From Henckelia pumila (taxonomy: Eukaryota; Streptophyta; Magnoliopsida; Lamiales; Gesneriaceae): a stretch of DNA of 64,000 bases. Positions 2,982 to 55,460 of the stretch are shown in pieces. The position numbers and the translations under genes are program-made. The stretch spans positions 61,883,522 to 61,947,521 of the forward strand of contig NC_133123.1 of the NCBI RefSeq assembly GCF_033568475.1, given 5' to 3'. How positions within the stretch are numbered: the first letter of the stretch is position 1; each line of letters starts with the position of its first letter. Under the pieces are notes generated by a model that searched no databases, was not told where the DNA came from, and saw only the letters and a list, made by a program, of their open reading frames with translations.

Positions 2982-4418
2982 TGTTGATAAGTGCATTTTG
3001 TGTGCATTATTTTATGTCTATTTGGCATGCATTCATATGGTTTCATGTGTGTTTTTATATTTTTTATTTGTAATTAATCTCATGCATGAGCATTTCACTC
3101 ACCGGGTTAATTTTGTAGGAAAATGGGTTTTTGAAGAATGAATTACGGAGCAGCCTTGATCAAAAATTAAAATTTAACTTTTGGGAGCTCCAAATCAAAT
3201 CTCCACTGTCCAAATTAAATTTCAAGATGTTTTGAAGATGTTGTCAAAATTTCAGCTCAATCCGACAGTTAAAACTAACATTATGATTTTTTTCAAGATA
3301 ACTGCGCGCTGAAAACTAGAGGCAGAACTTTTCAAGTCATGGCGTGATTTTTCCTGCGTCGTGGCGTGAACCGAGGATTTTGAAGAAGTGAAAACAGAAC
3401 TTTTCACGCTATGGCGTGACTTTTCTGCGCCATGGCGCGACGCAGACTGAAAAAATATTAATTTTCTAACATTAAAAGTTGCGATTTTTTGGGGCTTTAT
3501 TGGATGTGCTTTCAACCACATATAAAAAGGGATATATCAGACGTGAGAAAGAGTTCCGAAGTTCCACACATCAGAAACGCAAGGGAGGAGGCGGCCATCC
3601 AAGGAGAAGAACGTGAAGAGGGAGGAAACTTGAAGAACTCAAGAATCGCAACACTAGTTTTCTCTTCTTTCTTTTATATTTGTTGGGATTTAGGGGATCC
3701 TACCCCCAAAACTTTGTTTTGATTTCTTCTTGAAGATTGAATTTGATTTTTATGCATTCTTGATTATATTACTGTTTTTATTGATTATTTGGAGATTGAT
3801 CAACTTTGAATTGATTTTATGTGTTATAATTGATACTGAAAGGAGATTTTATAACATGATAGGGTAATATAGTCCATGGATCTACAACTTACATAGACAT
3901 ATGAGGTTGGATACATTTTGATAGTCATAGTCCAATAGGTCGAAAGCTAGAGGATTCCACAAATCGTAATGCAATTGCAATTGTTAAATAACACAAGGAC
4001 ACTTGGTTATTGCAATTTGTTAATTAGATTAATATAACTCGATAGAGTATATTGATAGATTAGGGAATTCCGTCAAAAGCATGACTTGAGAACTGAATTT
4101 CAATCATTAGAGAAGAAAAAGAGGTAGGTGAATCGAGATCCTAACAATCGTTTATTTATTTTCTGAATTTAATTTTATTATTTTGTTTTTTTTTTCATCT
4201 TTTATTTTAGTTTATTAATTTATTATCATGTTATCTTAATTAACTAAAGAATAATACTTTAGTAATTTTGTCAGACATCAATCTCTGTGGAACGATACTC
4301 GTACTTTGTACACTATATTATTACTTGACTCGTGCACTTGCGATATATTCGAGCTTAATTGGTATATATATTTAGGTTGATTTTCAGTGGTAGTATTTGC
4401 TCGACCACTAATACAACA
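2982..4418 (+). repeat. LTR of a nested plus-strand Ty3/gypsy element
   Basis: It starts TGTTGATAAGTGC directly after a purine-rich tract and ends ATACAACA, giving complementary TGTTG/CAACA ends, for 1,437 bp. The 3' part has the string CTCTGTGGAACGATACTCGT followed by CGTGCACTTGCG, which is familiar from plant Ty3/gypsy LTRs of the Tat/Ogre side. No second same-strand LTR is present, so only a 3' fragment of the element remains, next to the inverted LTR piece at 1029-1965. Confidence 0.7.
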
Positions 4419-15589: not shown

Positions 15590-17334
15590 TAGTTCCTTGA
15601 GCTATCCAGCAGCTTATTTTTTTGGTTTTGATAGCAAAAAGTTGTCATTTTCAAGTTTGTAATAGCAACATTATTGATTGTTATTAGGAAATTTTCTCCA
15701 ATATTTTAGTGTTTTTTGAAATATAACCGGTGGAATTGAGACCGACGACGAAATCGGGACTCACATTCACTTGGTTTTAGAAGTTAGATTATATTTCATT
15801 TATTTCATCTTTTGGCACATGAGTGCCTAGCATGCTGCAATCAACTCACTCTAGCCATTTTGTATGCAAACATAATTTTGGCATGTTCGGTGGGACCCCA
15901 TGCCGTCAAGGAACCTCAGATCAGGAAAAAGGCGACGGGAAGCCGTTGCAGGATGCTACGACAGGGGAATCTGTTCCTCATGTTGATACTGTTGAAAATG
16001 TGGTTCAGCCAATGGTTGAACATGTGGAGACGAACAGACAAGCTATTGAAGGAGGATACAACAAAATTCCAGAAATGTTAGTGATTCCTTCTGACCACTT
16101 TGATTCCATAGTCTCGAAGAAGTTTGAAGACATGGATCTGATGGTTGCGAGCACTATGGAGTGCATGGAGCAAGCGCATAAACTGATGATCTCCGTCATG
16201 AGTTACATGCGAGGTGAAATGAGCAGAATCAAAACTGGTGGAGAACTTGTGCCTAAAACCATCGAAATATCTCAAGAGCAGACAATTAATCCAAGAAGAA
16301 CTGCTGGTGAGAGTCACAAATCCAACGAAGGTGGAGGATCAAACAGAGGTTCCCCGACAAGCGATCCTCGCCGCCCTGGAAATTCTGGATTTGACAACCA
16401 GAATGATAGGTACACTCCCCCTCACAGAAGGGAAGATGAACCATGGATGAGAGTTCTACCCAACCAGAAGGTTGGTGGTAAGGCACCCATTATTCAAAGT
16501 TTTGCAGTTACCAACCCTAGAACACAATCTGGGTTATATGATGAACCAAATGATCGCCCGTATCTTATGTTGAACACTCTGGGAGCAACCACTTATCATC
16601 ATACATTAACTGGACCACCACCAGTGGATCGAGAACTCATACAGAAAATGGTGCAGGACTTGTATGGAATAGAGATTAGGCCAATGACTAGGCCTGAGTT
16701 ACTTTCACAAGCCTTATCCAAAGATCATTGACATCAATAACCCTTATCCTAAGGGTTTCAAGGTACTTGATTTCACACTGTTCTCAAGAGATGATGGTCA
16801 GTCCTCTACAGATCATGTAGCATAGTTCACCATACGATGTGGAACACTGGCCAACTATGAGTATTTTTCATTCTTCAAAATGAAGTTGTTCCCGAATACT
16901 CTGAATGGGACTGCGTTCACATGGTAAACTCAATTTCCAAGAAACTCCATTTTTACTTGGCAGGAAATGGAAAAAAATTTCCACACTCAGTTCTACCAAA
17001 CTGAGCCAGAAACTAGCTTTGCTTATCTGTCCAGGTTAACTCAGAAGTCCAGGAAAACTGCATGGTTGTTCATCAAACGTTTCAAGCAGTTGAAAATCCG
17101 TTGTAAGTGTTCCTTCCAAAGCTTGAATTTGTCAAATTGGAGGGTTGGATTTTGAGTTGAGGAAGAAGTTCCAAGGAACCTAATTCCATGATTTCTATGA
17201 AATGACCACGAAAGTGGCTGAGTATGAGGAATTCCTACATGAGGAATCATGTAGAAGGAAAACCACTGCTGGTTCCTATTATCAGGATGTGGCATTGGCA
17301 GAAGTTGGCAAGGCTGGTTCCTTTATATGCCCAT
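15590..17334 (+). pseudogene. gag: Ogre/Tat-like Ty3/gypsy gag, 5' half
   Basis: Upstream sequence (TTTTGGCATGTTCGGTGGGACC at about 15877-15898) is typical of the leader of Ogre/Tat-like elements. A frame at 15823-16731 (302 codons) covers an acidic and helical N-terminal region and a linker ending LLSQALSKDH. After a stop, further frames at about 16740-17334 still show gag-type text such as GFKVLDFTLFSRDDGQS and FTWQEMEKNFHTQFY. Several stops and frame changes show an old pseudogene. The frame is open at 17334, where the Athila-like array is inserted, and it resumes at 54479. Confidence 0.75.
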
Positions 17335-19006
17335 TGCTACAACTTAAATTGTAATTCACCCAAGTGTAGGTTGTCTGAAAGTAATATACTCGTGAGTACG
17401 AGATCGATCCATGGAGAGGATGTTGTAAGTTTAATTTTAGCAATGATATATTATAGATGAAAATATTATTATAAAACTTCAAATACACAAATTATAAAAT
17501 TGTCAAAGCTTCAAAGGTTCATTGTTGGTTTATTTAAGATTGCTTAATAAAAATAAATAAAAGAAACTAAAATAAGAATAAACATAAAATAACAATTAAA
17601 TATTTATACAAATATATCATATAATATAGTTCCCACTATATTAATATCAGATTAACCGATAATTATCCATAATATATATATAAGTGCAAAAATATAAATT
17701 GACATAAAATTAAATGTTAGATCAAATCACCATATTTCATTTAGAACAACCGGCAGAGCCACGCTATCGTCTAAATAAAATATATGACTTTTTATGTTAG
17801 ATGCGATAAAGTAAATGTTAATTGCGGAAATGTAAATGTTAAATGTTAGTTGCGGAAAGTAAATGTTAATTGCGGAAAGTAAATGTTAGTTGCGGAAAGT
17901 AAATGTTAGTTGCGAGAAAGTAAATGTTAGATCAAATCACAATATATTATTTAGAACAACCGGCAGAGCCACGCTATTGTCTAAATAATATATATGACTT
18001 TATTAAAAATTGATGCATATATTTATAGTATATAATTATTGTAGTATTTATTGTATCATATTAGACAACAAATCAAGGTAACCACATTCAAGGTACCAAG
18101 TATTTGATGTAAATAGATAACAATAAATCATCCAAATTATACCTACAAATAAAGATCAATTAGTAAAACAAAATAAAAAATAGAAAATAAAGAATATACA
18201 AAATATAAACAATCTTACTTGACCAACAATGAAACCTTTTCACCTTGACATAAAAAGATTTAGCTTGCCATGAACATGAAACTCAAGAATAAGGATAAAA
18301 GAAATTTCATACTTGAACTTGAGAAACTTGCACACTCAAAATTTTATTCTCACACACAATATTTATTTTACAAATGAGGAATTTCTCTACACTCTTGCAC
18401 ACTACAAAGCTTATACAACACATCTATTTATAGGCCAAATGAGAGCAAGGGTCCAAAACTCATTAAATGTAGAATAGTAAAGTTGGTGGGTGCTTGTCTC
18501 CTTGAATGTCAATACATTGACCCAACTTTAATTGGCATGTTTGATGCCTTAAACTTTCGATTTGGCTTCTGAATAAAACATATAACACGTAGCCCTTTGT
18601 CTGTAAATGTGTTTTGATAACTCATTCACCCCATTTGGATAAAATATAAAATACTTATGATATTTTTACTCCAAGCTGGTCATAGTAAAAGTAAATTTGT
18701 CTCCATTTTGATGTTTGATTATTTTGATCATCTCAATGAACTTTTTGGAATTTCTTGTCTTCTACAAAGTTGAAGATGCCTCTTTTGTGATTTTACAGGA
18801 TTTGAGATTACTCCATTATGACTTCTGTAGCTTGAGTAATTTTGTTTTTACCAAACCTGCGCAAACCGTAAAATACAACATTTTAGTAAAACATTTAAAT
18901 ATAAACACATAACACTAAAATAATACAACTTCATAATTTTAATTAAACTTTAATTTTAAAACACACTTTTTAACATATAAATAATTACAAATTTTAAGTT
19001 TCATCA
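17335..19006 (-). repeat. LTR1 (outer 3' LTR of the array)
   Basis: 1,672 bp, bounded by TSD CCCAT on the left and by the polypurine tract of internal 1 on the right (19007-19020, minus strand CCGGTTTGGGGGTA). At diagnostic sites it groups with LTR5 and not with LTRs 2-4 (for example GGCATG near 18533 and GGTCATAG near 18680). It contains a short-period repeat at 17800-17930. Confidence 0.9.
17711..18003. repeat. Internal LTR repeats: 20-bp minisatellite between two ~80-bp copies
   Basis: About six copies of a module like AAAGTAAATGTTAGTTGCGG lie at 17800-17930. They are flanked by two ~80-bp near copies (17711-17793 and 17921-18003) sharing CCGGCAGAGCCACGCTAT. The same arrangement is in LTR2 (about 22700-22985), LTR3 (about 32860-33143), LTR4 (about 43030-43312) and LTR5 (about 53185-53467). 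The repeats lack the unique spacers of a CRISPR array. Confidence 0.8.
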
Positions 19007-19317
19007 TACCCCCAAACCGGCTAATTACTAGTCCCTTAGTAATAAAATTTCATAAAATCACAAGTTAGATTTTTATTCCTTAATATATATATTCAAATTT
19101 GCAAACTTTGAAATTTTAAAACATACTTGTAAGAAGATCATATGTTTATTTATAAATCTTGATATTAACTAATATATTAATATATAATTGGATGGGGTAT
19201 ACATATATATTTCACACAATATCAAAATATTAAATATATATAATTTATTTATATTAATATTTTCTAAAAACTATGAGAATAATATAATCAAAATGATAAT
19301 AGAAATCCTTTTCGTAA
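19007..19317 (-). other. Unit 1 polypurine tract and remnant 3' region
   Basis: It starts with the PPT (19007-19020) and matches 23993-24303 of unit 2. At 19317 the homology jumps directly to RT sequence equivalent to about 29279, so about 5 kb (3' region, LOG, cysteine-rich ORF, integrase, RNase H, part of RT) is missing. Confidence 0.85.
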
Positions 19318-20509: not shown

Positions 20510-22319
<1,810 letters not shown>

Positions 22320-22445: not shown

Positions 22446-23992
22446 TTAAAACTTCAAATACACAAATTATAAAATTGTCAAGGTTTCAAAGTTTCATTGT
22501 TGGTTTATTTAAGATTGCTTAAGAAAAATAAATAAAAGAAACTAAAATAAGAATAAACATAAAAGAACAATTAAATATTTATAAAAATATATCATATAAT
22601 ATAGTTCTCACTATATTAATATCAGATTAACCGATAATTAATATATGGTACCCATAATATATATATAAGTGCATAAATATAAATTGACATAAAATTAAAT
22701 GTTGGATCAAATCACCATATTTCATTTAGAACAACCTGCAGAGCCACGCTATCGTCTAAATAAAATATATGACTTTTTATGTTAGATGCGATAAAGTAAA
22801 TGTTAATTGCTAAAATGTAAATGTTAAATGTTAGTTGCGGAAAGTAAATGTTAATTGCGGAAAGTAAATGCTAGCTGCGGAAAGTAAATGTTAGTTGCGA
22901 GAAAGTAAATGTTAGATCAAATCACAATATATTATTTAAAAAAACGGCAGAGCCACGCTATTGTTTAAATAATATATATAACTTTATTAAAAATTGATGC
23001 ATATATTTATAGTATATAATTATTGTAGAATTTATTTTATCATATTAGACAACAAATCAAGGTAACCACATTCAAGGTACCAAGTATTTGATGTAAATAG
23101 ATAACAATAAATCATCCAAATTATATCTACAAATAAAGATCAATTAGTAAAACAAAATAAAAAATAGAAAATAAAGAATATAAAAATTATAAAAAATCTT
23201 ACTTGACCAACAATGAAACCTTTTCACCTTGACATAAAAAGATTTAGCTTGCCATGAACATGAAACTCAAGAATAAGGATAAAAGAAATTTCATACTTGA
23301 ACTTGAGAAACTTGCACACTCAAAATTTTATTCTCACACACACAATATTTATTTTACAAATGAGGAATTTCTCTACACTCTTGCACACTACAAAGCTTAT
23401 ACAACACATCTATTTATAGGCCAAATGAGATCAAGGGTCCAAGACTCATTAAATATGGAATAGTAAAGTTGGTGGGTGCTTGTCTCCTTGAATGTCAATA
23501 CATTGACCCAACTTTAATTGACATGTTTGATGCCTTAGACTACCGATTTGGCTTCTGCACAAAACATATAACACGTAGCCCTTTGTCTATAGATGTGTTT
23601 TGACAACTCATTCACCCCTTTTGGATAAAATATGAAATACTTATGATATTTTTACTCCAAGCTGGTTATAGTAAAAGTAAATTTGTCTCCATTTTGATGT
23701 TTGATTATTTTGATCATCTTAATGAAGTTTTTGGAATTTCTTGTCTTCTACAAAGTTGAAGATGCCTCTTTTGTGATTCTACAGGATTTGAGATTACTCC
23801 ATTATGACTTCTGTAGCTTGAGTAATTTTATTTTTACCAAACCTGCGCAAACCGTAAAATACAACATTTTAGTAAAACATTTAAATATAAACACATAACA
23901 CTAAAATAATACAACTTCATAATTTTAATTAAACTTTAATTTTAAAAAACACTTTTTAACATATAAATAATTACAAATTTTAAGTTTCATCA
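22446..23992 (-). repeat. LTR2 (internal, 5'-truncated)
   Basis: This internal LTR lacks about 140 bp at its left edge together with the primer binding site. The lost stretch is replaced by a tandem duplicate of ACTATTTACATAATAACAAA (22411-22445). The right edge GTTTCATCA is followed by the PPT CACCCCCAAACCGG (23993). It carries the inner-LTR variants (GACATG, CTACCG, GGTTATAG). It cannot prime reverse transcription of unit 1. Confidence 0.85.
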
Positions 23993-25416: not shown

Positions 25417-26055
25417 TCAATGATTCAGTTTCCTTTTCTTACTGGTTGGTTGAGACCAATTGATATTTGTTATAGCCGAATCAGGTTGATGAACAAAAGC
25501 TTGGAGATCATCAATTAATTGGTCGTCATTCGAAGCAGAGATGAGCATCCTTCGCGAATTTTCTGAAATGAAATTTTGTTCCACAGCTACATCAAGAAAA
25601 GTCAACAAACCATCATAATAGTTATTGATATTCAACAAGCCAACAGGTTTATTATGAATATTAAGTTGTGCCCAAGAAACAACATGAAAAATTTCTTCTA
25701 AAGTACCAAAACCACCTGGTAAGGCAATAAAAGCATCAGAATTATCTATCATTTTAGTTATTTTCTCGTACATTGATGAAACTTTCAACTCTTTCCCAAC
25801 CGTAACACCTGTAATATTTCCTTCAGCTAAAGCTGTAGGAATAATACCCAAAACCTTACTACCTCCAAGATGAGCTGCTGTTGAAATAGATCCCATTAAC
25901 CCAATATTGCCTCCTCCGTATACCAAGTGAATTTTTCTTTCTGCTAACTTTTTTCCAAGATTAATTGCTGCATCAACAAATATTTCACTCTTTCCAGTAT
26001 TGGAACCACAAAATACACAAATATTTTTCAATTTTTGTGAAGCAGATCCTGCCAT
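25417..26055 (-). CDS. LOG-like: LOG-type cytokinin riboside 5'-monophosphate phosphoribohydrolase, retrotransposon-borne copy 1
   Basis: 212 residues, about the usual size of plant LOG enzymes, which release active cytokinin bases from their ribotides in cytosol and nucleus. Visible motifs: CGSNTG (16-21), VYGGGNIGLMG (45-55), VLGIIP (68-73), the signature PGGFGTLEE (113-121) and KPVGLLN (136-142). The tail has basic SKKRK (205-209), a possible nuclear signal. Oddity: the helix before PGG reads MYEKITKM (95-102), with Lys98 where the family has a catalytic Arg (MxxRK). The ORF is intronless, whereas plant LOG genes normally have several introns, so a cDNA origin is likely. It lies in sense orientation between the cysteine-rich ORF and the 3' LTR. 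The ATG follows a run of ten A and a splice-acceptor-like TTTTTGCAG. Confidence 0.9.
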   Translation of the reverse strand: MAGSASQKLKNICVFCGSNTGKSEIFVDAAINLGKKLAERKIHLVYGGGNIGLMGSISTAAHLGGSKVLGIIPTALAEGNITGVTVGKELKVSSMYEKITKMIDNSDAFIALPGGFGTLEEIFHVVSWAQLNIHNKPVGLLNINNYYDGLLTFLDVAVEQNFISENSRRMLISASNDDQLIDDLQAFVHQPDSAITNINWSQPTSKKRKLNH

Positions 26056-26948: not shown

Positions 26949-28680
26949 TTAATTTGGATCATATAAAGGCATAAACTCATCATTAAGAATTTCATTTTCT
27001 AAAAATGGTTTAAGTCTTTGTCCATTAACTTTAAACACATTATTATTTTTAGGATTTTCAACATCAACAACACCATGAGGATAAACATTTTTTACAACAT
27101 ATGGACCTGTCCATCGTGATCTAAGTTTTCCTGGAAACAAATGAAAGCGAGAATTATAAAGTAAAACTTTTTGTCCAATTTCAAACGATTTTCTCATAAT
27201 ATTTTTATCATGAAAGACTTTTGTTTTATCTTTATAAATCTTTGCATTTTCATATGCATCATTTCTTAATTCTTCTAGTTCATTTAGTTGCAATTTTCTT
27301 AATTTAGATGCATCATCTAAATTAGTATTAAATTCTTTAATAGCCCAATAAGCTTTATGTTCAATTTCAACAGGTAGATGACAATGCTTACCAAAAACTA
27401 ATCTATATGGTGACATCCCCAATGATGTTTTAAATGCAGTTCTATATGCCCATAATGCATCACTTAATCTTAAAGACCAATGTTTTCGATTTGGATTAAC
27501 AGTTTTTTTCCAAAATTTGTTTTATTTCTTTATTTGCAAGTTCAACCTGACCATTCGTTTGAGGGTGATATGGAGTAGAAACTTTATGTGTAATACCATA
27601 TTTTCTTAACAACGAAGAAAATGATTTATTTATAAAATGACTTCCCCCATCACTGATTATAGCTCTAGATATTCCAAATCGACTAAAAATATTTTTTTTC
27701 AAAAATTTTATCACAACTTTATGATCATTAGTTCTACATGCAATCGCTTCAATCCATTTTGAAACATAATCGATAGCTACTAAAATATAAGTAAATCCAA
27801 GAGATAATGGGAATGGACCCATAAAATCTATTCCCCAACTGTCAAATATTTCAATAATCATGATTGGATTTAAAGGCATCATGTTTCGTTTTGAAATTGA
27901 ACCCATTTTGTGACAATTTTCACAAGATTTGCAAAATGAATGCGTATCTTTGAATAAAAAAGGCCAATAAAATCCACATTGAAAGATTTTTGCAGCTGTT
28001 TTTTTTGACGAAAAATGACCTCCACATGCCTCAGAATGACAAAATTTAATAACACTACTTACCTCATTGTCGGGTATGCAACGTCGAAAAATTTGATCAG
28101 GACAATACTTAAACAAATAAGGATCATCCCAATAAAAATTTTTGACCTCTTTCAAGAATTTATTTTTATCTTGTGAACTCCAATGAGAAGGCATTTTATT
28201 TGTCACAAGAAAATTTACAATATTAGCAAACCAAGATATAGTAGTAGCATAGAATAGTTGATCATCCGGAAAATTTTCATTTATTGGTATTTCATTTTGA
28301 GACGATTCAAAAATTATTCTTGATAAATGATCGGCTACTACATTTTCTTTTCCTTTTTTATCTTTTATTACAAGATCAAATTCTTGTAACAACAACATCC
28401 ATCTTATTAATCTCGGCTTAGCAACTTGTTTATTTGATAAATATTTTATGGCAGAATTATCAGTATAAACAATAGTAGTAGAACCAATTAAATAGGATCG
28501 AAATTTATCTAATGCAAACACTACTGAAAGTAATTCTTTTCCAGTTGTTGAATAATTGATTTGAGCACTATTTAAGGTTCTACTAGCATAGTAGATCACA
28601 TGAGGTTTACCTTCTTTTCTTCGTCCTAACACGGCTCCTACAACATAATCACTTGCATCACACATTAATTCAAATGGTAA
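26949..28680 (-). pseudogene. pol: Unit 2 RNase H and integrase
   Basis: In order: RNase H ([37 protein letters not shown]), the HHCC zinc domain ([17 protein letters not shown]), and the integrase core with its three acidic residues ([30 protein letters not shown]). Then comes a C-terminal part ending FMPLYDPN at 26949. One extra T near 27505 shifts the frame between core and C-terminal part, and one extra base near 28684 separates RNase H from RT. It is otherwise the best preserved pol of the array. No chromodomain is seen. Confidence 0.9.
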
Positions 28681-29584
28681 AGACCAAATCAGGAGGTTGT
28701 AAAATAGGTGATGTAGTTAAAAGATTAATTATCTTTTTAAAAGAAGTTTCACATTCTTGAGTCCATTCAAACTGTGCATCTTTTGTTAAAAGATTTGAAA
28801 TTGGTTTCGATATTATGCTAAATTTTTTTATGAATCTTCTATAAAATCCCGCATGTCCCAAAAATGATCGAATTTCTTTAATCGTGTTTGGTGATGGTAA
28901 ATTAGCAATAACATCAACCTTAGCTTTATCAACTTCAATTCCTTTTTCAGATATGACATGCCCTAACACAATTCCGGATTTAACCATGTAGTGACATTTT
29001 TCCCAATTTAAAACAAGATTTTTTTCTTCACATCTTTTTAAAACTTCTTCCAAATTTTTAAAACAGTTTTCAAATGAGTTTCCAAAAACAGTTATATCAT
29101 TCATAAAAACTTCCACAAATTCTTCAATCATGTCACTAAAAATACTTAGCATGCATCTTTGAAAAGTTGCCGGAGCATTACATAAACCAAATGGCATTCT
29201 TTTAAATGCAAAAGTTCCAAAAGGACAAGTGAAAGTAGTTTTTTCTTGATCTTCTAATGATATTGGTATTTGATAATACCCCGAATACCCATCAAGAAAA
29301 CAATAAAAAGGATTACCTGCCACTTTCTCTAAAATTTGATCTAAAAATGGTAACGGAAAGTGATTTTTTCTAGTTGCATCATTTAATTTTCTATAATCAA
29401 TGCACATACGCCAACTAGATGGAATCCTAGCTTGTAATAATTCTCCCTTTTCATTTTGTATAACAGTGATGCCTGATTTTTTTGGTACTACTTGTGTTGG
29501 ACTTACCCATTTACTATCCGAGATTGGATAAATAATTCCGGCATCTAATAATTTTAACACTTCAGTTTTAACAACTTCTTTCAT
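28670..29584 (-). pseudogene. pol: Unit 2 reverse transcriptase
   Basis: It holds a near full-length RT domain: SWRMCIDYRKLNDATRK, FLDGYSGYYQIPI, MPFGLCNAPATFQRCM, then the YxDD-equivalent FMNDITVF, and the connection to RNase H (IRSFLGHAGFYRRFIKKF). The first catalytic Asp of the YxDD pair is Asn (AAT), predicted to be inactivating. The open frame is 304 codons, closed by frameshifts at both ends. Confidence 0.92.
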
Positions 29585-32131: not shown

Positions 32132-32201
<70 letters not shown>

Positions 32202-32216
32202 TATTATTTATTATTA

Positions 32217-32296
<80 letters not shown>

Positions 32297-32324
32297 CAAC
32301 TTGATTATTAGAATTATCCTCCAT
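30470..32324 (-). pseudogene. gag: Unit 2 gag
   Basis: It starts at ATG 32324. The poly-Asn tract (32132-32296) is interrupted by irregular A/T insertions that break the frame. Capsid-like frame 31562-32095 ends at a Glu-to-stop change (GTF then TAA). The downstream frame 30636-31364 has the zinc knuckle and Pro/Gln-rich linker and is identical to the unit 3 frame 40791-41519. The upstream ATG that opens the long unit 4 gag is followed here by TGA. Confidence 0.9.
32132..32296 (-). repeat. Interrupted (ATT)n tract in unit 2 gag
   Basis: About 165 bp of ATT repeats with irregular TATTATA/TTTATT interruptions around 32195-32225, unlike the pure tracts in units 1 and 3. Confidence 0.95.
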
Positions 32325-32467: not shown

Positions 32468-34152
32468 TGCTACGACTTAAATTGTAATTTACCCAAGTGT
32501 AGGTTGTCTGCAAGTAATATACTCGTGAGTACGAGATCGATCCACGGAGAGGATGCTGTAAGTTTAATTTTAGCAATGATATATTATAGATGAAAATATT
32601 ATTATAAAACTTCAAATACACAAATTATAAAATTGTCAAGGCTTCAAAGGTTCATTGTTGGTTTATTTAAGATTGCTTAACAAAAATAAATTAAAGAAAC
32701 TAAAATAAGAATAAACATAAAAGAACAATTAAATATTTATACAAATATATCATATAATATAGTTCTCACTATATTAATATCAGATTAACCGATAATTAAT
32801 ATATGGTACCCATAATATATATATAAGTGCATAAATATAAATTGACATAAAATTAAATGTTAGATCAAATCACCATATTTCATTTAGAACAACCGGCAGA
32901 GCCACGCTATCGTTTAAATAAAATATATGACTTTTTATGTTAGATGCGATAAAGTAAATGTTAATTGCGGAAATGTAAATGTTAAATGTTAGTTGCGGAA
33001 AGTAAATGTTAATTGCGAAAAGTAAATGTTAGTTGCGGAAAGTAAATGTTAGTTGCGAGAAAGTAAATGTTAGATCAAATCACAATATATTATTTAGAAC
33101 AACTGGCAGAGCCACGCTATTGTCTAAATAATATATATAACTTTATTAAAAATTGATGCATATATTTATAGTATATAATTATTGTAGTATTTATTGTATC
33201 ATATTAGACAACAAATCAAGGTAACCACATTCAAGGTACCAAGTATTTGATGTAAATAGATAACAATAAATCATCCAAATTATACCTACAAATAAAGATC
33301 AATTAGTAAAACAAAATAAAAAATAGAAAAAGAAAGAATATACAAAATATAAAAAATCTTACTTGACCAACAATGAAACCTTTTCACCTTGACATAAAAA
33401 GATTTAGCTTGCCATGAACATGAAACTCAAGAATAAGGATAAAAGAAATTTCATACTTGAACTTGAGAAACTTGCACACTCAAACTTTTATTCTCACACA
33501 CACAATATTTATTTTACAAATGAGGAATTTCTCTACACTCTTGCACACTACAAAGCTTATACAACACATCTATTTATAGGCCAAATGAGAGCAAGGGTCC
33601 AAGACTCATTAAATGTGGAATAGTAAAGTTAGTGGGTGCTTGTCTCCTTGAATGTCAATACATTGACCCAACTTTAATTGACATGTTTGATGCCTTAGAC
33701 TACCGATTTGGCTTCTACACAAAACATATAACACGTAGCCCTTTGTCTGTAGATGTGTTTTGACAACTCATTCACCCCTTTTGGATAAAATATGAAATAC
33801 TTATGATATTTTTACTCCAAGTTGGTTATAGTAAAAGTAAATTTGTCTCCATTTTGATGTTTGATTATTTTGATCATCTTAATGAAGTTTTTGGAATTTC
33901 TTGTCTTCTACAAAGTTGAAGATGCCTCTTTTGTGATTCTACAGGATTTGAGATTACTCCATTATGACTTCTGTAGCTTGAGTAATTTTATTTTTATCAA
34001 ACCTGCGCAAACCGTAAAATACAACATTTTAGTAAAACATTTAAATATAAACACATAACACTAAAATAATACAACTTCATAATTTTAATTAAACTTTAAT
34101 TTTAAAAAACACTTTTTAACATATAAATAATTACAAATTTTAAGTTTGATCA
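32468..34152 (-). repeat. LTR3 (internal)
   Basis: 1,685 bp from TGCTACGAC to GTTTGATCA, followed by the PPT CACCCCCAAACCA. It shares TGCTACGACTT, ATTTACCC and GATGCTG with LTR4, where LTR1 and LTR5 have TGCTACAACTT, ATTCACCC and GATGTTG. Confidence 0.92.
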
Positions 34153-35573: not shown

Positions 35574-36212
35574 TCAATGATTCAGTTTCCTTTTCTTACT
35601 GGTTGGTTGAGACCAATTGATATTTGTTATAGCCGAATCAGGTTGATGAACAAAATCTTGGAGATCATCAATTAATTGGTCGTCATTCGAAGCAGAGATG
35701 AGCATCCTTCGCGAATTTTCTGAAATAAAATTTTGTTCCACAGCTACATCAAGAAAAGTCAACAAACCATCATAATAGTTATTGATATTCAACAAGCCAA
35801 CAGGTTTATTATGAATATTAAGTTGTGCCCAAGAAACAACATGAAAAATTTCTTCTAAAGTACCAAAACCACCTGGTAAGGCAATAAAAGCATCAGAATT
35901 ATCTATCATTTTAGTTATTTTCTCGTACATTGATGAAACTTTCAACTCTTCCCCAACCGTAACACCTGTAATATTTTCTTCAGCTAAAGCTTTAGGAATA
36001 ACAACCAAAACCTGACTACCTCCAAGATGAGCTGCTGTTGAAATAGATCCCATTAACCCAATATTGCCTCCTCCGTATACCAAGTGAATTTTTCTTTCTG
36101 CTAACTTTTTTCCAAGATTAATTGCTGCATCAACAAATATTTCACTCTTTCCAGTATTGGAACCACAAAATACACAAATATTTTTCAATTTTTGTGAAGC
36201 AGATCCTGCCAT
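35574..36212 (-). CDS. LOG-like: LOG-type cytokinin-activating enzyme, retrotransposon-borne copy 2
   Basis: 212 residues with the same motifs and Lys98 change as copy 1. It differs from copy 1 at K67Q, G70V, I71V, T74K, G79E, K88E and A186D; six of the seven lie in residues 67-88. VLVVIP replaces the family-like VLGIIP, while Glu88 is closer to the family than the Lys of copy 1. The frame is fully open, sense-oriented in the retroelement, 3' of the cysteine-rich ORF and a candidate intron, with its own AATAAA downstream. Neighbouring gag-pol has several lesions. Confidence 0.9.
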   Translation of the reverse strand: MAGSASQKLKNICVFCGSNTGKSEIFVDAAINLGKKLAERKIHLVYGGGNIGLMGSISTAAHLGGSQVLVVIPKALAEENITGVTVGEELKVSSMYEKITKMIDNSDAFIALPGGFGTLEEIFHVVSWAQLNIHNKPVGLLNINNYYDGLLTFLDVAVEQNFISENSRRMLISASNDDQLIDDLQDFVHQPDSAITNINWSQPTSKKRKLNH

Positions 36213-36234: not shown

Positions 36235-36426
36235 CTGCAAAAATATAGAGATAGTTGAGTGATTTTATAAGGAAAACAAGGAATACGACAGAAATAGGAA
36301 TACAGGTGTGAACATAATAACGAAAACAATAAAAATAATAATATATAATAATGACATGCATGCATATATACAGTGATTGTGGCTCACAGTGTTCCTTCAA
36401 TATTTATGAGTCGAGGGTTGGCTTAC
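36235..36426 (-). other. Candidate intron upstream of LOG (unit 3)
   Basis: Donor GATG|GTAAGCC (36426) and acceptor TTTTTGCAG (36235), 192 bp, equivalent to 26078-26269. The 71-codon frame 36185-36400 lies mostly in this intron and is unlikely to be a separate gene. Confidence 0.45.
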
Positions 36427-36959
36427 CATCCAATTTTCTTATAAATTGGCAAATAGGGTCTTTTTTAGTCAGATTCCCAAGACCATTACCATGACGCTGT
36501 GCTTGGAATAGTTTCCATAAACGGAGAAGTTGACCTTGCACATCTCCACTAGAATGCGTCTCAAGAGTCAATGAGATATCATCTAATGACTCTTTACTCA
36601 GCCCATTCTTAATGAAATCAATTTTATCTTCTCTATTTTTGGAAACATATCCCAAAGATCTGCATCGTCTATCACAAGTCCATCTGGCACATTTATGACA
36701 AACATCTAACCTCTTGGCCCTCCTTTTATTCGCATAGGTGCTTTTTCCTAGTCCAGACATATTTGGAACAAGTAAGAATTTTGGAACTTCACCACCCAAT
36801 CAAACTTTGGCCGGCTTCAATTATAAGACGAATATCCTCCGGAATTCCTTTTTGCATAAGCATTCTCAATCTTTCACATCTACCTTCATAAATCATTCTC
36901 AGAACTTTTTTAGAAACAGATGGAAAATATTTACCATGTTCTTTGATAGCTTCATCCAT
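36404..36959 (-). CDS. Cysteine-rich nucleic-acid-binding-like protein, virus-type (unit 3)
   Basis: Two adjoining frames. The first (36789-36959, from ATG 36959) is 56 residues, helical and charged. The second starts at ATG 36760 (118 residues to 36404). It has a basic stretch (YANKRRAKR) directly followed by VCHKCARWTCDRRC, a C-x2-C-x4-C-x3-C cluster, then a charged tail. A leading helical part, an Arg/Lys-rich arm and a compact cysteine cluster is the layout of the cysteine-rich nucleic-acid-binding proteins of Betaflexiviridae (carla-, viti-like), some of which suppress RNA silencing or act in the nucleus. It is neither gag, pol nor known env. The frame break between the parts may be real decay. 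Alternative: an unrelated plant zinc-binding protein. Confidence 0.5.
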
Positions 36960-37107
36960 TTTGAAAATAAAGAAATATTTTTTTTTTCAATTATTTTGGG
37001 AAATTGAAATAAAACCAACTAAAAGAAGTCACGAAGTACCGTTATCCGCCACTTAACCGGGAAATGAACTCAATTCTGCAAAAATAAAATGAAAAAATAA
37101 GTAACAA

Positions 37108-38670
37108 TTAATTTGGATCATATAAAGGCATAAACTCATCATTAAGAATTTCATTTTTTAAAAATGGTTTAAGTCTTTGTCCATTAACTTTAAACACATT
37201 ATTATTTTTAGGATTTTCAACATCAACAGCACCATGAGGATAAACATTTTTTACAACATATGGACCTATCCATCGTGATCTAAGTTTTCCTGGAAACAAA
37301 TGCAAGCGAGAATTATAAAGTAAAACTTTTTGTCCAATTTCAAACGGTTTTCTCATAATATTTTTATCATGAAAGACTTTTGTTTTATCTTTATAAATTT
37401 TTGCATTTTCATATGCATCATTTCTTAATTCTTCTAGTTCATTTAGTTGCAATTTTCTTAATTTAGATGCATCATCTAAATTAGTATTAAATGCTTTAAT
37501 AGCCCAATAAGCTTTATGTTCAATTTCAACAGGTAGATGACAATGCTTACCAAAAACTAATCTATATGGTGACATCCCCAATGATGTTTTAAATGCAGTT
37601 CTATATGCCCATAATGCATCACTTAATCTTAAAGACCAATGTTTTCGATTTGGATTAACAATTTTTTCCAAAATTTGTTTTATTTCTTTATTTGCAAGTT
37701 CAACCTGACCATTCGTTTGAGGGTGATATGGAGTAGAAACTTTATGTGTAATACCGTATTTTCTTAACAACGAAGAAAATGATTTATTTATAAAATGACT
37801 TCCCCCATCACTGATTATAGCTCTAGATATTCCAAATTGACTAAAAATATTTTTTTTCAAAAATTTTATCACAACTTTATGATCATTAGTTCTACATGCA
37901 ATCGCTTCAATCCATTTTGAGACATAATCGACAGCTACTAAAATATAAGTAAATCCAAGAGATAATGGGAATGGACCCATAAAATCTATTCCCCAACTGT
38001 CAAATATTTCAATAATCATGATTGGATTTAAAGGCATCATGTTTCGTTTTGAAATTGAACCCATTTTGTGACAATTTTCACAAGATTTGCAAAATGAATG
38101 CGTATCTTTGAATAAAAAAGGCTAATAAAATCCACATTGAAAGATTTTTGCAGCTGTTTTCTTTGACGAAAAATGACCTCCACATGCCTCAGAATGACAA
38201 AATTTAATGACACTACTTACCTCATTGTCGGGTATGCAACGTCGAAAAATTTGATCAGGACAATACTTAAACAAATAAGGATCATCCCAATAAAATTTTT
38301 GACCTCTTTCAAGAATTTATTTTTATCTTGTGAATTCCAATGAGAAGGCATTTTATTTGTCACAAGAAAATTTATAATATTAGCAAACCAAGGCATAGTA
38401 GTAGCATAGAATAGTTGATCATCCGGAAAATTTTTATTTATTGGTATTTCATTTTGAGACGATTCAAAAATTATTCTTGATAAATGATCGGCTACTACAT
38501 TTTATTTTCCTTTTTTATCTTTTATTACAAGATCAAATTCTTGTAACAACAAAATCCATCTTATTAATCTCGGCTTAGCATCTTGTTTATTTGATAAATA
38601 TTTTATGGCAGAATGATCAGTATAAACAATAGTAGTAGAACCAATTAAATAGGATCAAAATTTATCTAAT
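37108..38670 (-). pseudogene. pol: Unit 3 integrase and RNase H end
   Basis: The integrase core plus C-terminal part is open from [12 protein letters not shown] (38064) to 37108 and includes the D, D and E motifs ([25 protein letters not shown]). Upstream there are an in-frame TAG in the zinc domain (Trp codon at about 38123), a TAA in the RNase H-integrase linker (Glu codon near 38503), a 1-2 base frameshift near 38297 and a TGA near 38656. It is almost identical to unit 4 at 47279-48835. Confidence 0.9.
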
Positions 38671-40624: not shown

Positions 40625-42496
<1,872 letters not shown>

Positions 42497-42639: not shown

Positions 42640-44322
42640 TGCTACGACTTAAATTGTAATTTACCCAAGTGTAGGTTGTCTGCAAGTAATATACTCGTGA
42701 GTACGAGATCGATCCACGGAGAGGATGCTGTAAGTTTAATTTTAGCAATGATATATTATAGATGAAAATATTATTATAAAACTTCAAATACACAAATTAT
42801 AAAATTGTCAAGGCTTCAAAGGTTCATTGTTGGTTTATTTAAGATTGCTTAACAAAAATAAATTAAAGAAACTAAAATAAGAATAAACATAAAAGAACAA
42901 TTAAATATTTATACAAATATATCATATAATATAGTTCTCACTATATTAATATCAGATTAACCGATAATTAATATATGGTACCCATAATATATATATAAGT
43001 GCATAAATATAAATTGACATAAAATTAAATGTTAGATCAAATCACCATATTTCATTTAGAACAACCGGCAGAGCCACGCTATCGTTTAAATAAAATATAT
43101 GACTTTTTATGTTAGATGCGATAAAGTAAATGTTAATTGCGGAAATGTAAATGTTAAATGTTAGTTGCGGAAAGTAAATGTTAATTGCGAAAAGTAAATG
43201 TTAGTTGCGGAAAGTAAATGTTAGTTGCGAGAAAGTAAATGTTAGATCAAATCACAATATATTATTTAGAACAACTGGCAGAGCCACGCTATTGTCTAAA
43301 TAATATATAACTTTATTAAAAATTGATGCATATATTTATAGTATATAATTATTGTAGTATTTATTGTATCATATTAGACAACAAATCAAGGTAACCACAT
43401 TCAAGGTACCAAGTATTTGATGTAAATAGATAACAATAAATCATCCAAATTATACCTACAAATAAAGATCAATTAGTAAAACAAAATAAAAAATAGAAAA
43501 AGAAAGAATATACAAAATATAAAAAATCTTACTTGACCAACAATGAAACCTTTTCACCTTGACATAAAAAGATTTAGCTTGCCATGAACATGAAACTCAA
43601 GAATAAGGATAAAAGAAATTTCATACTTGAACTTGAGAAACTTGCACACTCAAACTTTTATTCTCACACACACAATATTTATTTTACAAATGAGGAATTT
43701 CTCTACACTCTTGCACACTACAAAGCTTATACAACACATCTATTTATAGGCCAAATGAGAGCAAGGGTCCAAGACTCATTAAATGTGGAATAGTAAAGTT
43801 AGTGGGTGCTTGTCTCCTTGAATGTCAATACATTGACCCAACTTTAATTGACATGTTTGATGCCTTAGACTACCGATTTGGCTTCTACACAAAACATATA
43901 ACACGTAGCCCTTTGTCTGTAGATGTGTTTTGACAACTCATTCACCCCTTTTGGATAAAATATGAAATACTTATGATATTTTTACTCCAAGTTGGTTATA
44001 GTAAAAGTAAATTTGTCTCCATTTTGATGTTTGATTATTTTGATCATCTTAATGAAGTTTTTGGAATTTCTTGTCTTCTACAAAGTTGAAGATGCCTCTT
44101 TTGTGATTCTACAGGATTTGAGATTACTCCATTATGACTTCTGTAGCTTGAGTAATTTTATTTTTATCAAACCTGCGCAAACCGTAAAATACAACATTTT
44201 AGTAAAACATTTAAATATAAACACATAACACTAAAATAATACAACTTCATAATTTTAATTAAACTTTAATTTTAAAAAACACTTTTTAACATATAAATAA
44301 TTACAAATTTTAAGTTTGATCA
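42640..44322 (-). repeat. LTR4 (internal)
   Basis: 1,683 bp, nearly identical to LTR3, with the same TGCTACGAC and GTTTGATCA ends. It differs by a 2-bp shorter TA run near 43300. Confidence 0.92.
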
Positions 44323-44335
44323 CACCCCCAAACCA

Positions 44336-45746: not shown

Positions 45747-46385
45747 TCAATGATTCAGTTTCCTTTTCTTACTGGTTGGTTGAGACCAATTGATATTTGT
45801 TATAGCCGAATCAGGTTGATGAACAAAATCTTGGAGATCATCAATTAATTGGTCGTCATTCGAAGCAGAGATGAGCATCCTTCGCGAATTTTCTGAAATA
45901 AAATTTTGTTCCACAGCTACATCAAGAAAAGTCAACAAACCATCATAATAGTTATTGATATTCAACAAGCCAACAGGTTTATTATGAATATTAAGTTGTG
46001 CCCAAGAAACAACATGAAAAATTTCTTCTAAAGTACCAAAACCACCTGGTAAGGCAATAAAAGCATCAGAATTATCTATCATTTTAGTTATTTTCTCGTA
46101 CATTGATGAAACTTTCAACTCTTCCCCAACCGTAACACCTGTAATATTTTCTTCAGCTAAAGCTTTAGGAATAACAACCAAAACCTGACTACCTCCAAGA
46201 TGAGCTGCTGTTGAAATAGATCCCATTAACCCAATATTGCCTCCTCCGTATACCAAGTGAATTTTTCTTTCTGCTAACTTTTTTCCAAGATTAATTGCTG
46301 CATCAACAAATATTTCACTCTTTCCAGTATTGGAACCACAAAATACACAAATATTTTTCAATTTTTGTGAAGCAGATCCTGCCAT
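45747..46385 (-). CDS. LOG-like: LOG-type cytokinin-activating enzyme, retrotransposon-borne copy 3
   Basis: 212 residues, identical in protein sequence to copy 2, as expected if both descend from one unit by the 10.17-kb duplication. It keeps PGGFGTLEE, GGGNIGLMG, Lys98 and the basic tail. With copies 1 and 2 it makes three uninterrupted LOG frames in one insertion. Confidence 0.9.
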   Translation of the reverse strand: MAGSASQKLKNICVFCGSNTGKSEIFVDAAINLGKKLAERKIHLVYGGGNIGLMGSISTAAHLGGSQVLVVIPKALAEENITGVTVGEELKVSSMYEKITKMIDNSDAFIALPGGFGTLEEIFHVVSWAQLNIHNKPVGLLNINNYYDGLLTFLDVAVEQNFISENSRRMLISASNDDQLIDDLQDFVHQPDSAITNINWSQPTSKKRKLNH

Positions 46386-46407: not shown

Positions 46408-46599
46408 CTGCAAAAATATAGAGATAGTTGAGTGATTTTATAAGGAAAACAAGGAATACGACAGAAATAGGAATACAGGTGTGAACATAATAACGAAAAC
46501 AATAAAAATAATAATATATAATAATGACATGCATGCATATATACAGTGATTGTGGCTCACAGTGTTCCTTCAATATTTATGAGTCGAGGGTTGGCTTAC
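46408..46599 (-). other. Candidate intron upstream of LOG (unit 4)
   Basis: Same GTAAGCC donor (46599) and TTTTTGCAG acceptor (46408) as in units 2 and 3. Confidence 0.45.
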
Positions 46600-47132
46600 C
46601 ATCCAATTTTCTTATAAATTGGCAAATAGGGTCTTTTTTAGTCAGATTCCCAAGACCATTACCATGACGCTGTGCTTGGAATAGTTTCCATAAACGGAGA
46701 AGTTGACCTTGCACATCTCCACTAGAATGCGTCTCAAGAGTCAATGAGATATCATCTAATGACTCTTTACTCAGCCCATTCTTAATGAAATCAATTTTAT
46801 CTTCTCTATTTTTGGAAACATATCCCAAAGATCTGCATCGTCTATCACAAGTCCATCTGGCACATTTATGACAAACATCTAACCTCTTGGCCCTCCTTTT
46901 ATTCGCATAGGTGCTTTTTCCTAGTCCAGACATATTTGGAACAAGTAAGAATTTTGGAACTTCACCACCCAATCAAACTTTGGCCGGCTTCAATTATAAG
47001 ACGAATATCCTCCGGAATTCCTTTTTGCATAAGCATTCTCAATCTTTCACATCTACCTTCATAAATCATTCTCAGAACTTTTTTAGAAACAGATGGAAAA
47101 TATTTACCATGTTCTTTGATAGCTTCATCCAT
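46577..47132 (-). CDS. Cysteine-rich nucleic-acid-binding-like protein, virus-type (unit 4)
   Basis: Identical in its main frame to the unit 3 copy. A 56-codon leading frame lies at 46962-47132. The 118-codon frame with basic arm and C-x2-C-x4-C-x3-C cluster starts at ATG 46933 and ends at 46577. The same uncertainty about family applies. Integrase ends about 150 bp upstream, at 47279. Confidence 0.5.
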
Positions 47133-50754: not shown

Positions 50755-52713
<1,959 letters not shown>

Positions 52714-52793
52714 ACAATTAAAAACAACATACTATTTACATAATAACAAAATTAAACTTAATTTATACCTCCCCGGCAACCACGCCAAAAACT

Positions 52794-54478
52794 TGCTACA
52801 ACTTAAATTGTAATTCACCCAAGTGTAGGTTGTCTGCAAGTAATATACTCGTGAGTACGAGATCGATCCACGGAGAGGATGTTGTAAGTTTAATTTTAGC
52901 AATGATATATTATAGATGAAAATATTATTATTAAACTTCAAATACACAAATTATAAAATTGTCAAGGCTTCAAAGGTTCATTGTTTGTTTATTTAAGATT
53001 GCTTAACAAAAATAAATAAAATAAACTAAAATAAGAATAAACATAAAAGAACAATTAAATATTTATACAAATATATCATATAATATAGTTCTCACTATAT
53101 TAATATCAGATTAACCGATAATTAATATATGGTACACATAATATATATATAAGTGCATAAATATAAATTGACATAAAATTAAATGTTAGATCAAATCACC
53201 ATATTTTATTTAGAACAACCGGCAGAGCCACGCTATCGTCTAAATAAAATATATGACTTTTTATGTTAGATGCGATAAAGTAAATGTTAATTGCGGAAAT
53301 GTAAATGTTAAATGTTAGTTGCAGAAAGTAAATGTTAATTGCGGAAAGTAAATGTTAGTTGCGGAAAGTAAATGTTAGTTGCGAGAAAGTAAATGTTAGA
53401 TCAAATCACAATATATTATTTAGAACAACCGGCAGAGCCACGCTATTGTCTAAATAATATATATGACTTTATTAAAAATTGATGCATATATTTATAGTAT
53501 ATAATTATTGTAGTATTTATTGTATCATATTAGACAACAAATCAAGGTAACCACATTCAAGGTACCAAGTATTTGATGTAAATAGATAACAATCAATCAT
53601 CCAAATTATACCTACAAATAAAGATCAATTAGTAAAACAAAATAAAAAATAGAAAAAGAAAGAATTTACAAAATATAAAAAATCTTACTTGACCAACAAT
53701 GAAACCTTTTCACCTTGACATAAAAAGATTTAGCTTGCCATGAACATGAAACTCAAGAATAAGGATAAAAGAAATTTCATACTTGAACTTGAGAAACTTG
53801 CACACTCAAACTTTTATTCTCACACACACAATATTTATTTTACAAATGAGGAATTTCTCTACACTCTTGCACACTACAAAGCTTATACAATACATCTATT
53901 TATAGGCCAAATGAGAGCAAGGGTCCAAGACTCATTAAATGTGGAATAGTAAAGTTGGTGGGTGCTTGTCTCCTTGAATGTCAATACATTGACCCAACAT
54001 TAATTGGCATGTTTGATGCCTTAGACTTCCGATTTGGCTTCTGCACAAAACATATAACACGTAGCCCTTTGTCTGTAGATGTGTTTTGACAACTCATTCA
54101 CCCCTTTTGGATAAAATATGAAATACGTATGATATTTTTACTCCAAGCTGGTCATAGTAAAAGTAAATTTGTCTCCATTTCGATGTTTGATTATTTTGAT
54201 CATTTTAATGAAGTTTTTGGAATTTCTTGTCTTCTACAAAGTTGAAGATGCCTCTTTTGTGATTCTACAGGATTTAAGATTACTCCATTATGACCTTTGT
54301 AGCTTGAGTAATTTTATTTTTACCAAACTCGCGCAAACCGTAAAATACAACATTTTAGTAAACCATTTAAATATAAACACATAACACTAAAATAATACAA
54401 CTTCATAATTTTAATTAAACTTTAATTTTAAAACACACTTTTTAACATATAAATAATTACAAATTTTAAGTTTCATCA
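52794..54478 (-). repeat. LTR5 (outer 5' LTR of the array)
   Basis: 1,685 bp from TGCTACAAC to GTTTCATCA, then TSD CCCAT. In minus orientation this is the upstream LTR that would drive transcription of the array. It shares outer-LTR variants with LTR1 (ATTCACCC, GGCATG, GGTCATAG, AAAACACAC). Confidence 0.9.
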
Positions 54479-55460
54479 CCCATCTTTGAAGCGCAAAACT
54501 GGTGAACCGGTGAAACTAAGTTCATCAATGATGCAAGGTCAGAGCAACATTTAGTTCACTTTTGATGTGTCGAATACATAAGAGATCTTTGATTTCCTTG
54601 TCAAAGAGAAGTTCATCACATTTTCTTCAAATCACCAAGAGCCAAAAAAGGAGAAGTTAAAAGGAAAATAGTAATATAAGTATCACAATTATTTCAATCA
54701 TGCTACCAATTATTGTTGGGCATTTAAAAACATCATCCAAGATAGAATCAACAAGGGGGTACTGAAGTTCCCCGATAAAAAAAATTATGCTGATTGACGA
54801 GGATCATTTTCATCCTATTGCAAAAGTAAATATCATTACTTCAGATCTACGGAGTATATTTAATCAGAGGAGGGAACATCGATGAAACTCAACAATAGGT
54901 CCCAAGAAAATGATAAAAAGATATTGGCCGGTTCCTAGGAACATGATGTCCGAGATCACAGAAGAGAAATACAGTGACAGGATCACCCAATATGCCCAGA
55001 GAAAAGGAAATAAGACCCATGCATATACAGAAAGAATCATGGACCATGGGCTAAGGAAACATTTCGAGGGTCCATGGAAAGAACACTCTGAGGGCAATAA
55101 AAAAGTGCCTCGAGGAAAAAAAATGTTACCTCTAGTACCTGCGCCATATTACAGACAGATGAACCATGGTCAAAAAATCCAGATCACAAGGATAAATAAA
55201 CCCAGATTCGTGATTCCTCAAAATGTGCAACCAGATGTACAGTGGAATTTGGTGCGTCACAAGAAGTTTTCTTTATCGCTCACAAGAGCTCAAAAGAGAA
55301 GACTTTAGAGAGAGAGAGCAATGACACGTAGAGCTGCTGAGGAATCTTCAATTCCAAGCAAGAGAAAGTTTTCCAGAAAGGCAACTAAGGATAAGGAGTT
55401 TGATGATGATGACTTGCTATCTGAGGAAGAACTAAATACCAAGGAACATGTTATTTTCTT
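54479..55460 (+). pseudogene. gag: Ogre/Tat-like gag, 3' half
   Basis: It resumes the frame left at 17334. With one copy of the CCCAT duplication removed, the codons run on in phase. Further text such as EIFDFLVKEKFITF, CWAFKNIIQDRINKGVLKFPD and LIDEDHFHPIAKV is typical of the gag C-terminal and gag-pro spacer of Ogre/Tat elements. The open stretch 54910-55308 (132 codons) and an acidic piece near 55323-55440 (DDDDLLSEEELN) follow. Many stops are present. Confidence 0.65.

Follow-up and report, generated by a model that had tools for sequence, protein, structure and literature searches.

Does a plant enzyme gene that sits inside a retrotransposon work for the retrotransposon? The question is raised by a 64-kb stretch of the Henckelia pumila genome (contig NC_133123.1; hereafter the window), whose minus strand holds a tandem array of an Athila-like Ty3/gypsy element with long terminal repeats (LTRs). 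Inside the array are open reading frames (ORFs) for a protein of the LOG type, the family of plant enzymes that activate the hormone cytokinin. The initial annotation described a complete intronless LOG ORF placed in sense between integrase and the 3′ LTR and present in three of the four array units. This description stands. All three ORFs are open, intronless and 212 codons long, and gag, reverse transcriptase (RT), RNase H and integrase domains lie upstream on the same strand. The fourth, leftmost unit lost LOG by a deletion that joined position ~19317 to RT and also removed integrase, part of RT and a small cysteine-rich (Cys-rich) ORF. The LOG ORFs of units 2 and 3 are identical in DNA, and that of unit 1 differs from them by 1.25% of bases. 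Based on the anatomy, the copy number, the selection pattern, the clade, and the pocket and tail changes, we propose that the element family has made LOG part of its own gene set, as a selected accessory enzyme with a remodelled pocket that acts for the element. We give this proposal an about even chance of being right; expression, localisation, substrate and benefit are what we infer.

The window LOG protein matches PF03641 (Lysine_decarbox, the family holding LOG; E 3.7e-37), and its nearest solved structure is Arabidopsis LOG3 (AtLOG3, 2a33; E 7.3e-62). A model predicted from 32 sequences has a mean pLDDT (predicted local distance difference test) of 86.6, with the final residues below 50, and aligns with 2a33 at a template modelling (TM) score of 0.94 by target length and 51-52% identity. 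As modelled, the window LOG has the same fold as AtLOG3.

The gene is found across the host genome. Searching the 885-Mb assembly at the DNA level turned up 339 candidates; all 40 that were scored are full length, at 96-100% identity. At the protein level 464 candidates came up, and the best-scoring 150 span at least residues 4-212; 140 of these 150 have no stop, a sample in which open copies are over-represented. In a comparison of seven of the copies, six encode one protein, but the seven had been picked for equal protein scores, so their likeness is partly circular and carries no weight here. The scored copies are located on C1-C4 and eight smaller contigs. The claim that LOG was kept open and multiplied is thus borne out. 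We retrieved 37 dispersed copies, all picked by their LOG match, 20 of them as stretches of 9.9 kb and 17 as stretches of 2 kb. The 9.9-kb stretches contain LOG in 20 of 20 cases (the feature they were selected by), LTR sequence and the Cys-rich ORF in 19 each, integrase in 17, RT in 15 and gag in 13; some of the missing pieces lie beyond the stretch and others are truly absent. Three dispersed copies were checked for their ends. Each has its own LTR pair (divergence 0.011, 0.030 and 0.032) and its own flanking duplication, which is perfect in two of them and agrees at 4 of 5 bases in the third; these are independent insertions.

Once inserted, a copy can decay freely; single-copy variants are thus expected to look neutral, and those shared among copies should reveal selection during replication. 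We therefore compared the ratio of nonsynonymous plus stop to synonymous variants between the two classes, keeping 40 of 40 LOG copies and, for the other genes, requiring that a copy cover at least 80 or 90% of the query. For LOG the ratio was 110:28 among single-copy variants vs 36:25 among those in two or more copies (P=0.003) and 18:19 among those in three or more (P=0.0003); stop variants numbered 10 in the single-copy class and 0 in the shared class. The other two frames of LOG, used as a control, showed no shift (P=0.17 and 1). A shift in the same direction was found for gag in its right frame (15 copies, P=0.003) and for integrase (20 copies, P=2.5e-5), with none in their other frames, for RT variants in three or more copies (P=0.016), and for the 118-codon Cys-rich ORF (33 copies, P=0.003). 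Judged from these variants, the copies show purifying selection on LOG in its true frame only, as for gag and integrase. This suggests that LOG behaves as one of the element’s own genes, not mere cargo. To call it transduplicated cargo, as was done at first, is correct in that the element carries a host-type gene, but understates a selection pattern like that of the element’s own gag and integrase.

LOG-type proteins of this kind also occur in other plants. A protein search with the window LOG scored 8000 candidates and found 7975 matches. Many of the 120 matches listed lie on Reevesia, Diplodiscus, Pterospermum and Xanthoceras chromosomes; Populus, Melia, Paulownia and Primulina are represented by single named ones. 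Several of the genomes contain many LOG-type loci, which speaks for a location in elements, and part of the Xanthoceras protein P0004, 37 residues long, has 54% identity with the window gag region. For both the LOG protein P0007 and the Cys-rich protein P0139 the source is an ENA contig 8723 bases long; this hints at a single shared contig but is not proof of it. Phylogeny against plant LOG families, a check put forward with the initial annotation, placed 32 element-type sequences on one side of a branch and 28 native ones on the other (support 99/97, in a tree whose bootstrap had not settled). When four native LOGs of the host were added, 20 element-type sequences again lay on one side (96/92). 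The two trees sampled 32 and 20 of 121 element-type and 27 and 14 of 120 native sequences; the natives were LOG1/3-type proteins, AtLOG8 and the four host genes, and other LOG groups might sit nearer. On these trees, the relatives from asterids and rosids form what appears to be one clade separate from native LOGs.

The host’s own LOG genes are of a different make. When the host genome was searched with 99 residues of Arabidopsis LOG3, all matches scored were full-length and element-type, at 56-60% identity (150 scored of 374 candidates). With a 39-residue Arabidopsis-type query, 8 native-type places ranked top, one with an internal stop (150 scored of 318 candidates). The four native host LOGs that we retrieved have at least five exons each and contain His97, Lys100 and Glu125 (residues are numbered as in CgLOG throughout); the element LOG is 47-49% identical to them. 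A native LOG on contig C2 matches the Henckelia pumila protein P0335 in five of six exon pieces and also in the sixth, except for its first residue, which lies at an intron edge. An intronless copy made from mRNA and captured long ago probably fits these features best. A search of viral contigs with the LOG alignment gave 10 pattern matches and no relative among them.

Work on CgLOG provides a guide to the active site. It proposes Arg99 and Glu122 as the catalytic pair and infers a prenyl pocket of Met96, His97, Lys100, Glu125 and Trp129, identical in AtLOG3, OsLOG and CpLOG; alanine at the catalytic residues and those binding adenosine monophosphate nearly abolished activity (PMC4979012). We compared 121 element-type with 120 native proteins. 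All seven residues are invariant in 120 of 120 native LOGs. The element-type proteins mostly keep the PGGxGTxxE motif and the catalytic pair (Arg99 in 112 of 121, Glu122 in 114) and largely retain three pocket residues (Trp129 in 120, Met96 in 96, His97 in 68). Lys100 is kept in only 8 and replaced by Met, Ile or Leu in the other 113, and Glu125 is kept in 9 and replaced in 112, mostly by Gln or His. The window protein has Tyr, Ile and His at the His97, Lys100 and Glu125 places, and so lacks these three residues of the inferred prenyl pocket. These replacements favour an N6-side pocket that has changed relative to native cytokinin LOGs.

Could the element LOG nevertheless be a true cytokinin activator? 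Such an enzyme would turn riboside monophosphates into free cytokinin, and the element could reach the germ line better through effects on cell division or meristem fate. We consider this possible but, on balance, unlikely. The modelled AtLOG3 fold, the conserved motif and catalytic pair, and the retained Met96, Trp129 and His97 agree with it, as do relatives from Xanthoceras, where His97, Lys100 and Glu125 occur together in 8 of 8 proteins, the only element-type proteins with all three. Moreover, LOG activity is reported not to track LOG phylogeny (PMC11593424), so pocket changes need not destroy activity. Against it stand the near-complete loss of Lys100 and Glu125, the basic tail foreign to native LOGs described below, and the Lys that the window copies carry at the very Arg whose change to alanine nearly abolished CgLOG activity (PMC4979012). 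The first description of the gene as a cargo making active cytokinin is therefore not established.

The Xanthoceras proteins in question (P0004, P0005, P0016, P0069, P0080, P0090, P0098 and P0105) retain the pocket residues of native LOGs and fall outside the clade of the other element-type LOGs, with support of 100/99 and 100/98 in two trees. They may represent an intermediate that precedes the pocket change.

The C-terminal tail also sets the two groups apart. A basic cluster is present in the last 22 residues of 92 of 121 element-type proteins vs 1 of 120 native ones, and an LxLxL motif in the last 14 residues of 82 of 121 vs 0 of 120. The former may be a nuclear signal and the latter a repressor-type (EAR) motif. 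The window family has the basic cluster and no LxLxL.

Between integrase and LOG lies the second accessory gene, a 118-residue ORF that resembles the Cys-rich proteins of carlaviruses. It scores above the cut-offs of PF05515 and PF01623 by narrow margins (23.6 over 23 and 22.6 over 20.9 bits), and its relative P0123 also does so (27.1 and 23.2 bits). Our search found 135 relatives among 143 candidates, many of them ~182 residues long; named ones come from Rhamnella, Orobanche and, in shorter form, Citrus. The longer frame of these relatives is interrupted in the window ORF. A search of the PDB with the 118-residue ORF gave no match. The viral members, which match the same two Pfam families, suppress silencing, and one of them reportedly works as a transcription factor and causes hyperplasia (PMC12172455); unlike them, the partner ORF is carried by a retrotransposon. 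We found no report of a carlavirus-type Cys-rich ORF in retrotransposons in the open-access literature. In four dispersed copies (L018, L024, L025 and L027) the Cys-rich ORF is divergent (68-74% identity to the window’s) and the LOG beside it is ~96% alike, suggesting that the Cys-rich gene may have been exchanged between sub-lineages.

If LOG does belong to the element’s gene set, the following course of events can be envisaged. An intronless LOG would have been captured long ago from a plant mRNA and would have stayed between integrase and the 3′ LTR, next to the carlavirus-type Cys-rich gene. Selection would act on it during element replication, as on gag and integrase, and each copy would drift after insertion. 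The protein could be translated from a spliced or multi-gene message driven by the LTR and enter the nucleus by means of its basic tail. There, with its N6-side pocket altered, it might split the base-ribose bond of nucleoside 5′-monophosphates. The cell’s nucleotide or hormone signals would thereby shift in the element’s favour, through access to dividing or germ-line cells or a blunted defence, and the Cys-rich partner perhaps acts jointly with LOG. A bolder form of this proposal is that a cytokinin enzyme was turned into a nucleus-directed accessory with a new nucleotide substrate which, along with a virus-type Cys-rich protein, counters silencing or immunity or steers cell fate. We regard this form as speculative and probably wrong. 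If it were true, traces of the new use would be seen in a pocket without Lys100 and Glu125 beside a catalytic pair that most copies keep, in the basic tail, which ends in LxLxL in many relatives, and in the element-style selection.

Several observations weigh against a selected accessory enzyme. Lys replaces the catalytic Arg in the three window LOG copies and one other, with Arg in 36 of 40 copies. The site test disregards the copy tree and gene conversion. For RT, variants in two or more copies gave no significant shift (P=0.10 with 15 copies, 0.16 with 16), the LOG signal is weaker in a 23-copy subset (P=0.12 and 0.03 for variants in at least two and at least three copies), and the Cys-rich ORF has two stop variants common to three or more copies. 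Ranking copies by likeness to an open LOG favours open copies. We also infer, rather than observe, that most of the listed relatives sit in elements. Finally, the candidate splice site before LOG is absent from 25 of 37 dispersed copies.

A rival view sees LOG as a passenger with no function of its own: a single capture would have been followed by spread with a successful element, and its conservation would reflect young copies or recombination. We think this improbable. The dispersed copies are indeed young, the three with checked ends having inserted about 0.4-2.3 million years ago on plant substitution rates that we assume; LOG is broken in 11 of 37 dispersed copies and open in 26, and the single-copy variants look neutral. 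However, the shared variants skew to synonymous changes in the true frame only, and LOG stays closer to the window unit than the spacer beside it and the LTR do. Median identity is 96.6% for LOG (20 copies), 96.3% for integrase (17) and 97.1% for RT (15), compared with 88.8% for the downstream spacer (18) and 91.4% for the LTR (18). Furthermore, relatives in distant plants have retained both their full length and the catalytic residues. A single local event, in which a host LOG entered one element and only the tandem array multiplied it, would account for three copies in an array that did multiply in place, as its two LTRs free of substitutions attest, but we rule it out as having a negligible chance of being true: the initial annotation had named a LOG absent from other copies and identical to one host locus as the sign of such an event, and we found hundreds of candidates genome-wide, 37 dispersed copies with LOG, independent insertions with their own LTRs and duplications, and at most 49% identity to the four host LOGs.

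Extra genes of plant LTR elements have mostly been labelled passengers or env-like, their job unassigned. Athila elements are said to hold extra ORFs in their 3′ region, and two Athila-like elements reportedly similar to LOGL4 were noted by Steinbauerova and colleagues in 2011. A LOG-type (YgdH/LOG) domain occurs in LTR elements of Citrus and Populus, likewise as an extra gene of Gypsy-type elements, although the accessible part of that report gives only its presence (PMC9289625). Judged on the open-access literature, our study adds to the Citrus and Populus reports the copy number, the selection, the catalytic and pocket residues, the tail, the partner ORF, the common clade and a new host. 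Athila elements with env-like or other extra 3′ ORFs resemble the window element in gene order, tRNA-Asp-like primer site, 5-bp duplication and a sense ORF between integrase and the 3′ LTR (PMC7264820, PMC6317226), but the window ORF is a whole enzyme of a known family, not an env-like or unknown one. The orchid Ty3/gypsy elements with an AlkB-like N6-methyladenosine demethylase domain are another case of a nucleic-acid-chemistry enzyme domain captured by Gypsy-type elements (PMC9289625), with a different enzyme in a different plant family. Compared with native plant LOGs such as AtLOG3 (2a33), with which it shares the fold and most element-type proteins share the catalytic pair and PGGxGTxxE, the element LOG is intronless, lies in an element, has Lys100 and Glu125 replaced, bears a basic tail and is distant from the host genes.

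Genes like these may be easily overlooked. A survey of plant LTR elements counted extra ORFs from 250 codons up (PMC6317226), a floor that would miss both the 212-codon LOG and the ~182-codon Cys-rich ORF. In databases, some element-type proteins bear the names of ordinary LOG genes (‘LOG3-like’ for P0011, ‘LOGL10’ for P0063), which may inflate LOG gene counts. Here, a whole enzyme of known fold and chemistry appears to belong to element families of both asterids and rosids, with selection in step with gag and integrase. Upkeep by selection and an altered active site suggest that LOG does a job for the element and is not cargo picked up by accident. Whether plant retrotransposons manipulate host cells by means of enzymes they have captured thus becomes a directly testable question.

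The window element has the Gypsy order RT-RNase H-integrase and a gag of the Retrotrans_gag type. Its primer site, TGGCGTCGTTGCCGGGGA, lies 6 nt past the LTR in two units and agrees at 17 of 18 bases with what we take to be the end of tRNA-Asp. Diaspora and Calypso have a tRNA-Asp-complementary primer site a few bases past the LTR (PMC1142308), and the window element shares this Athila trait. The Athila ORF-1 domain PF03078 had no match among the nine window ORFs scanned; it occurs in 16% of Athila elements (PMC6317226) and is not required of a member. We therefore call the element Athila-like, a name that rests on primer site, gene order and gag type, not on a tree of RT, RNase H or integrase.

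The array consists of five LTRs of ~1.68 kb alternating with four internal regions (Table 1), the LTR bounds being set by comparing the window with three dispersed copies at their 5′ ends. The same 5-bp target-site duplication at both outer ends indicates one insertion followed by tandem multiplication, for which unequal exchange is the simplest route. LTRs B and C have 0 substitutions in 1683 aligned bases, so the latest duplication in the array is recent. Several gag-pol frames are broken within the window. Splicing directly before LOG was not borne out as a general rule: of the 37 dispersed copies, 12 have TTTGCAG at that point, and it is missing from two sub-lineages. The candidate site ahead of the Cys-rich region, by contrast, is conserved.

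Table 1. Coordinates of features in and around the tandem array (positions within the window)
Feature	Positions	Strand	Basis or remark
LOG-type ORF, unit 1, 212 codons, open	25417..26055	-	Pfam
LOG-type ORF, unit 2, 212 codons, open	35574..36212	-	
LOG-type ORF, unit 3, protein same as unit 2	45747..46385	-	
118-residue ORF, carlavirus-type Cys-rich domain, unit 2	36404..36760	-	Pfam
118-residue ORF, unit 3, protein same as 36404-36760	46577..46933	-	
Candidate 3′ splice site TTTTTGCAG before Cys-rich region	37076..37084	-	conserved at every base (34 or 35 of 35 copies)
Candidate 3′ splice site before LOG	36235..36243	-	TTTGCAG in 12/37 dispersed copies only
RNase H and integrase core, unit 1	27496..28665	-	Pfam
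Reverse transcriptase, unit 1	28670..29584	-	Pfam
Integrase C-terminal half ORF, unit 2	37108..38064	-	
gag ORF with poly-Asn tract, unit 3	51196..52713	-	
LTR A, outermost 5′ LTR	52794..54478	-	comparison with dispersed copies
LTR B	42640..44322	-	comparison with dispersed copies
LTR C, no substitution vs LTR B	32468..34152	-	LTR alignment
LTR D, end missing	22447..23992	-	LTR comparison
LTR E, outermost 3′ LTR	17335..19006	-	LTR comparison
Target-site duplication ATGGG, 5′ side	54479..54483	-	
Target-site duplication ATGGG, 3′ side	17330..17334	-	
Primer binding site, tRNA-Asp-like, 6 nt past LTR end	52770..52787	-	
Polypurine tract GGTTTGGGGGTG, immediately before LTR B	44323..44334	-	
Deletion junction, leftmost unit, LTR E-adjacent sequence fused into RT	19254..19317	-	

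A poly-Asn tract lies near the gag N-terminus in each unit on the minus strand (22155-22292, 32132-32297, 42287-42469 and 52453-52626). Its length varies by unit (46, 22 plus 25, 61 and 58 codons) and is 28 codons in the dispersed copy L048. Outside the array, parts of another gypsy-type element lie at 58077-60899 on the plus strand, with aspartyl protease and RT domains at 59063-60142. A 299-residue ORF just beyond the array (15832-16731, plus strand) had no Pfam match, and an inverted repeat of ~925 bases, 94% alike, is formed by window positions 1029-1954 and 3484-4407.
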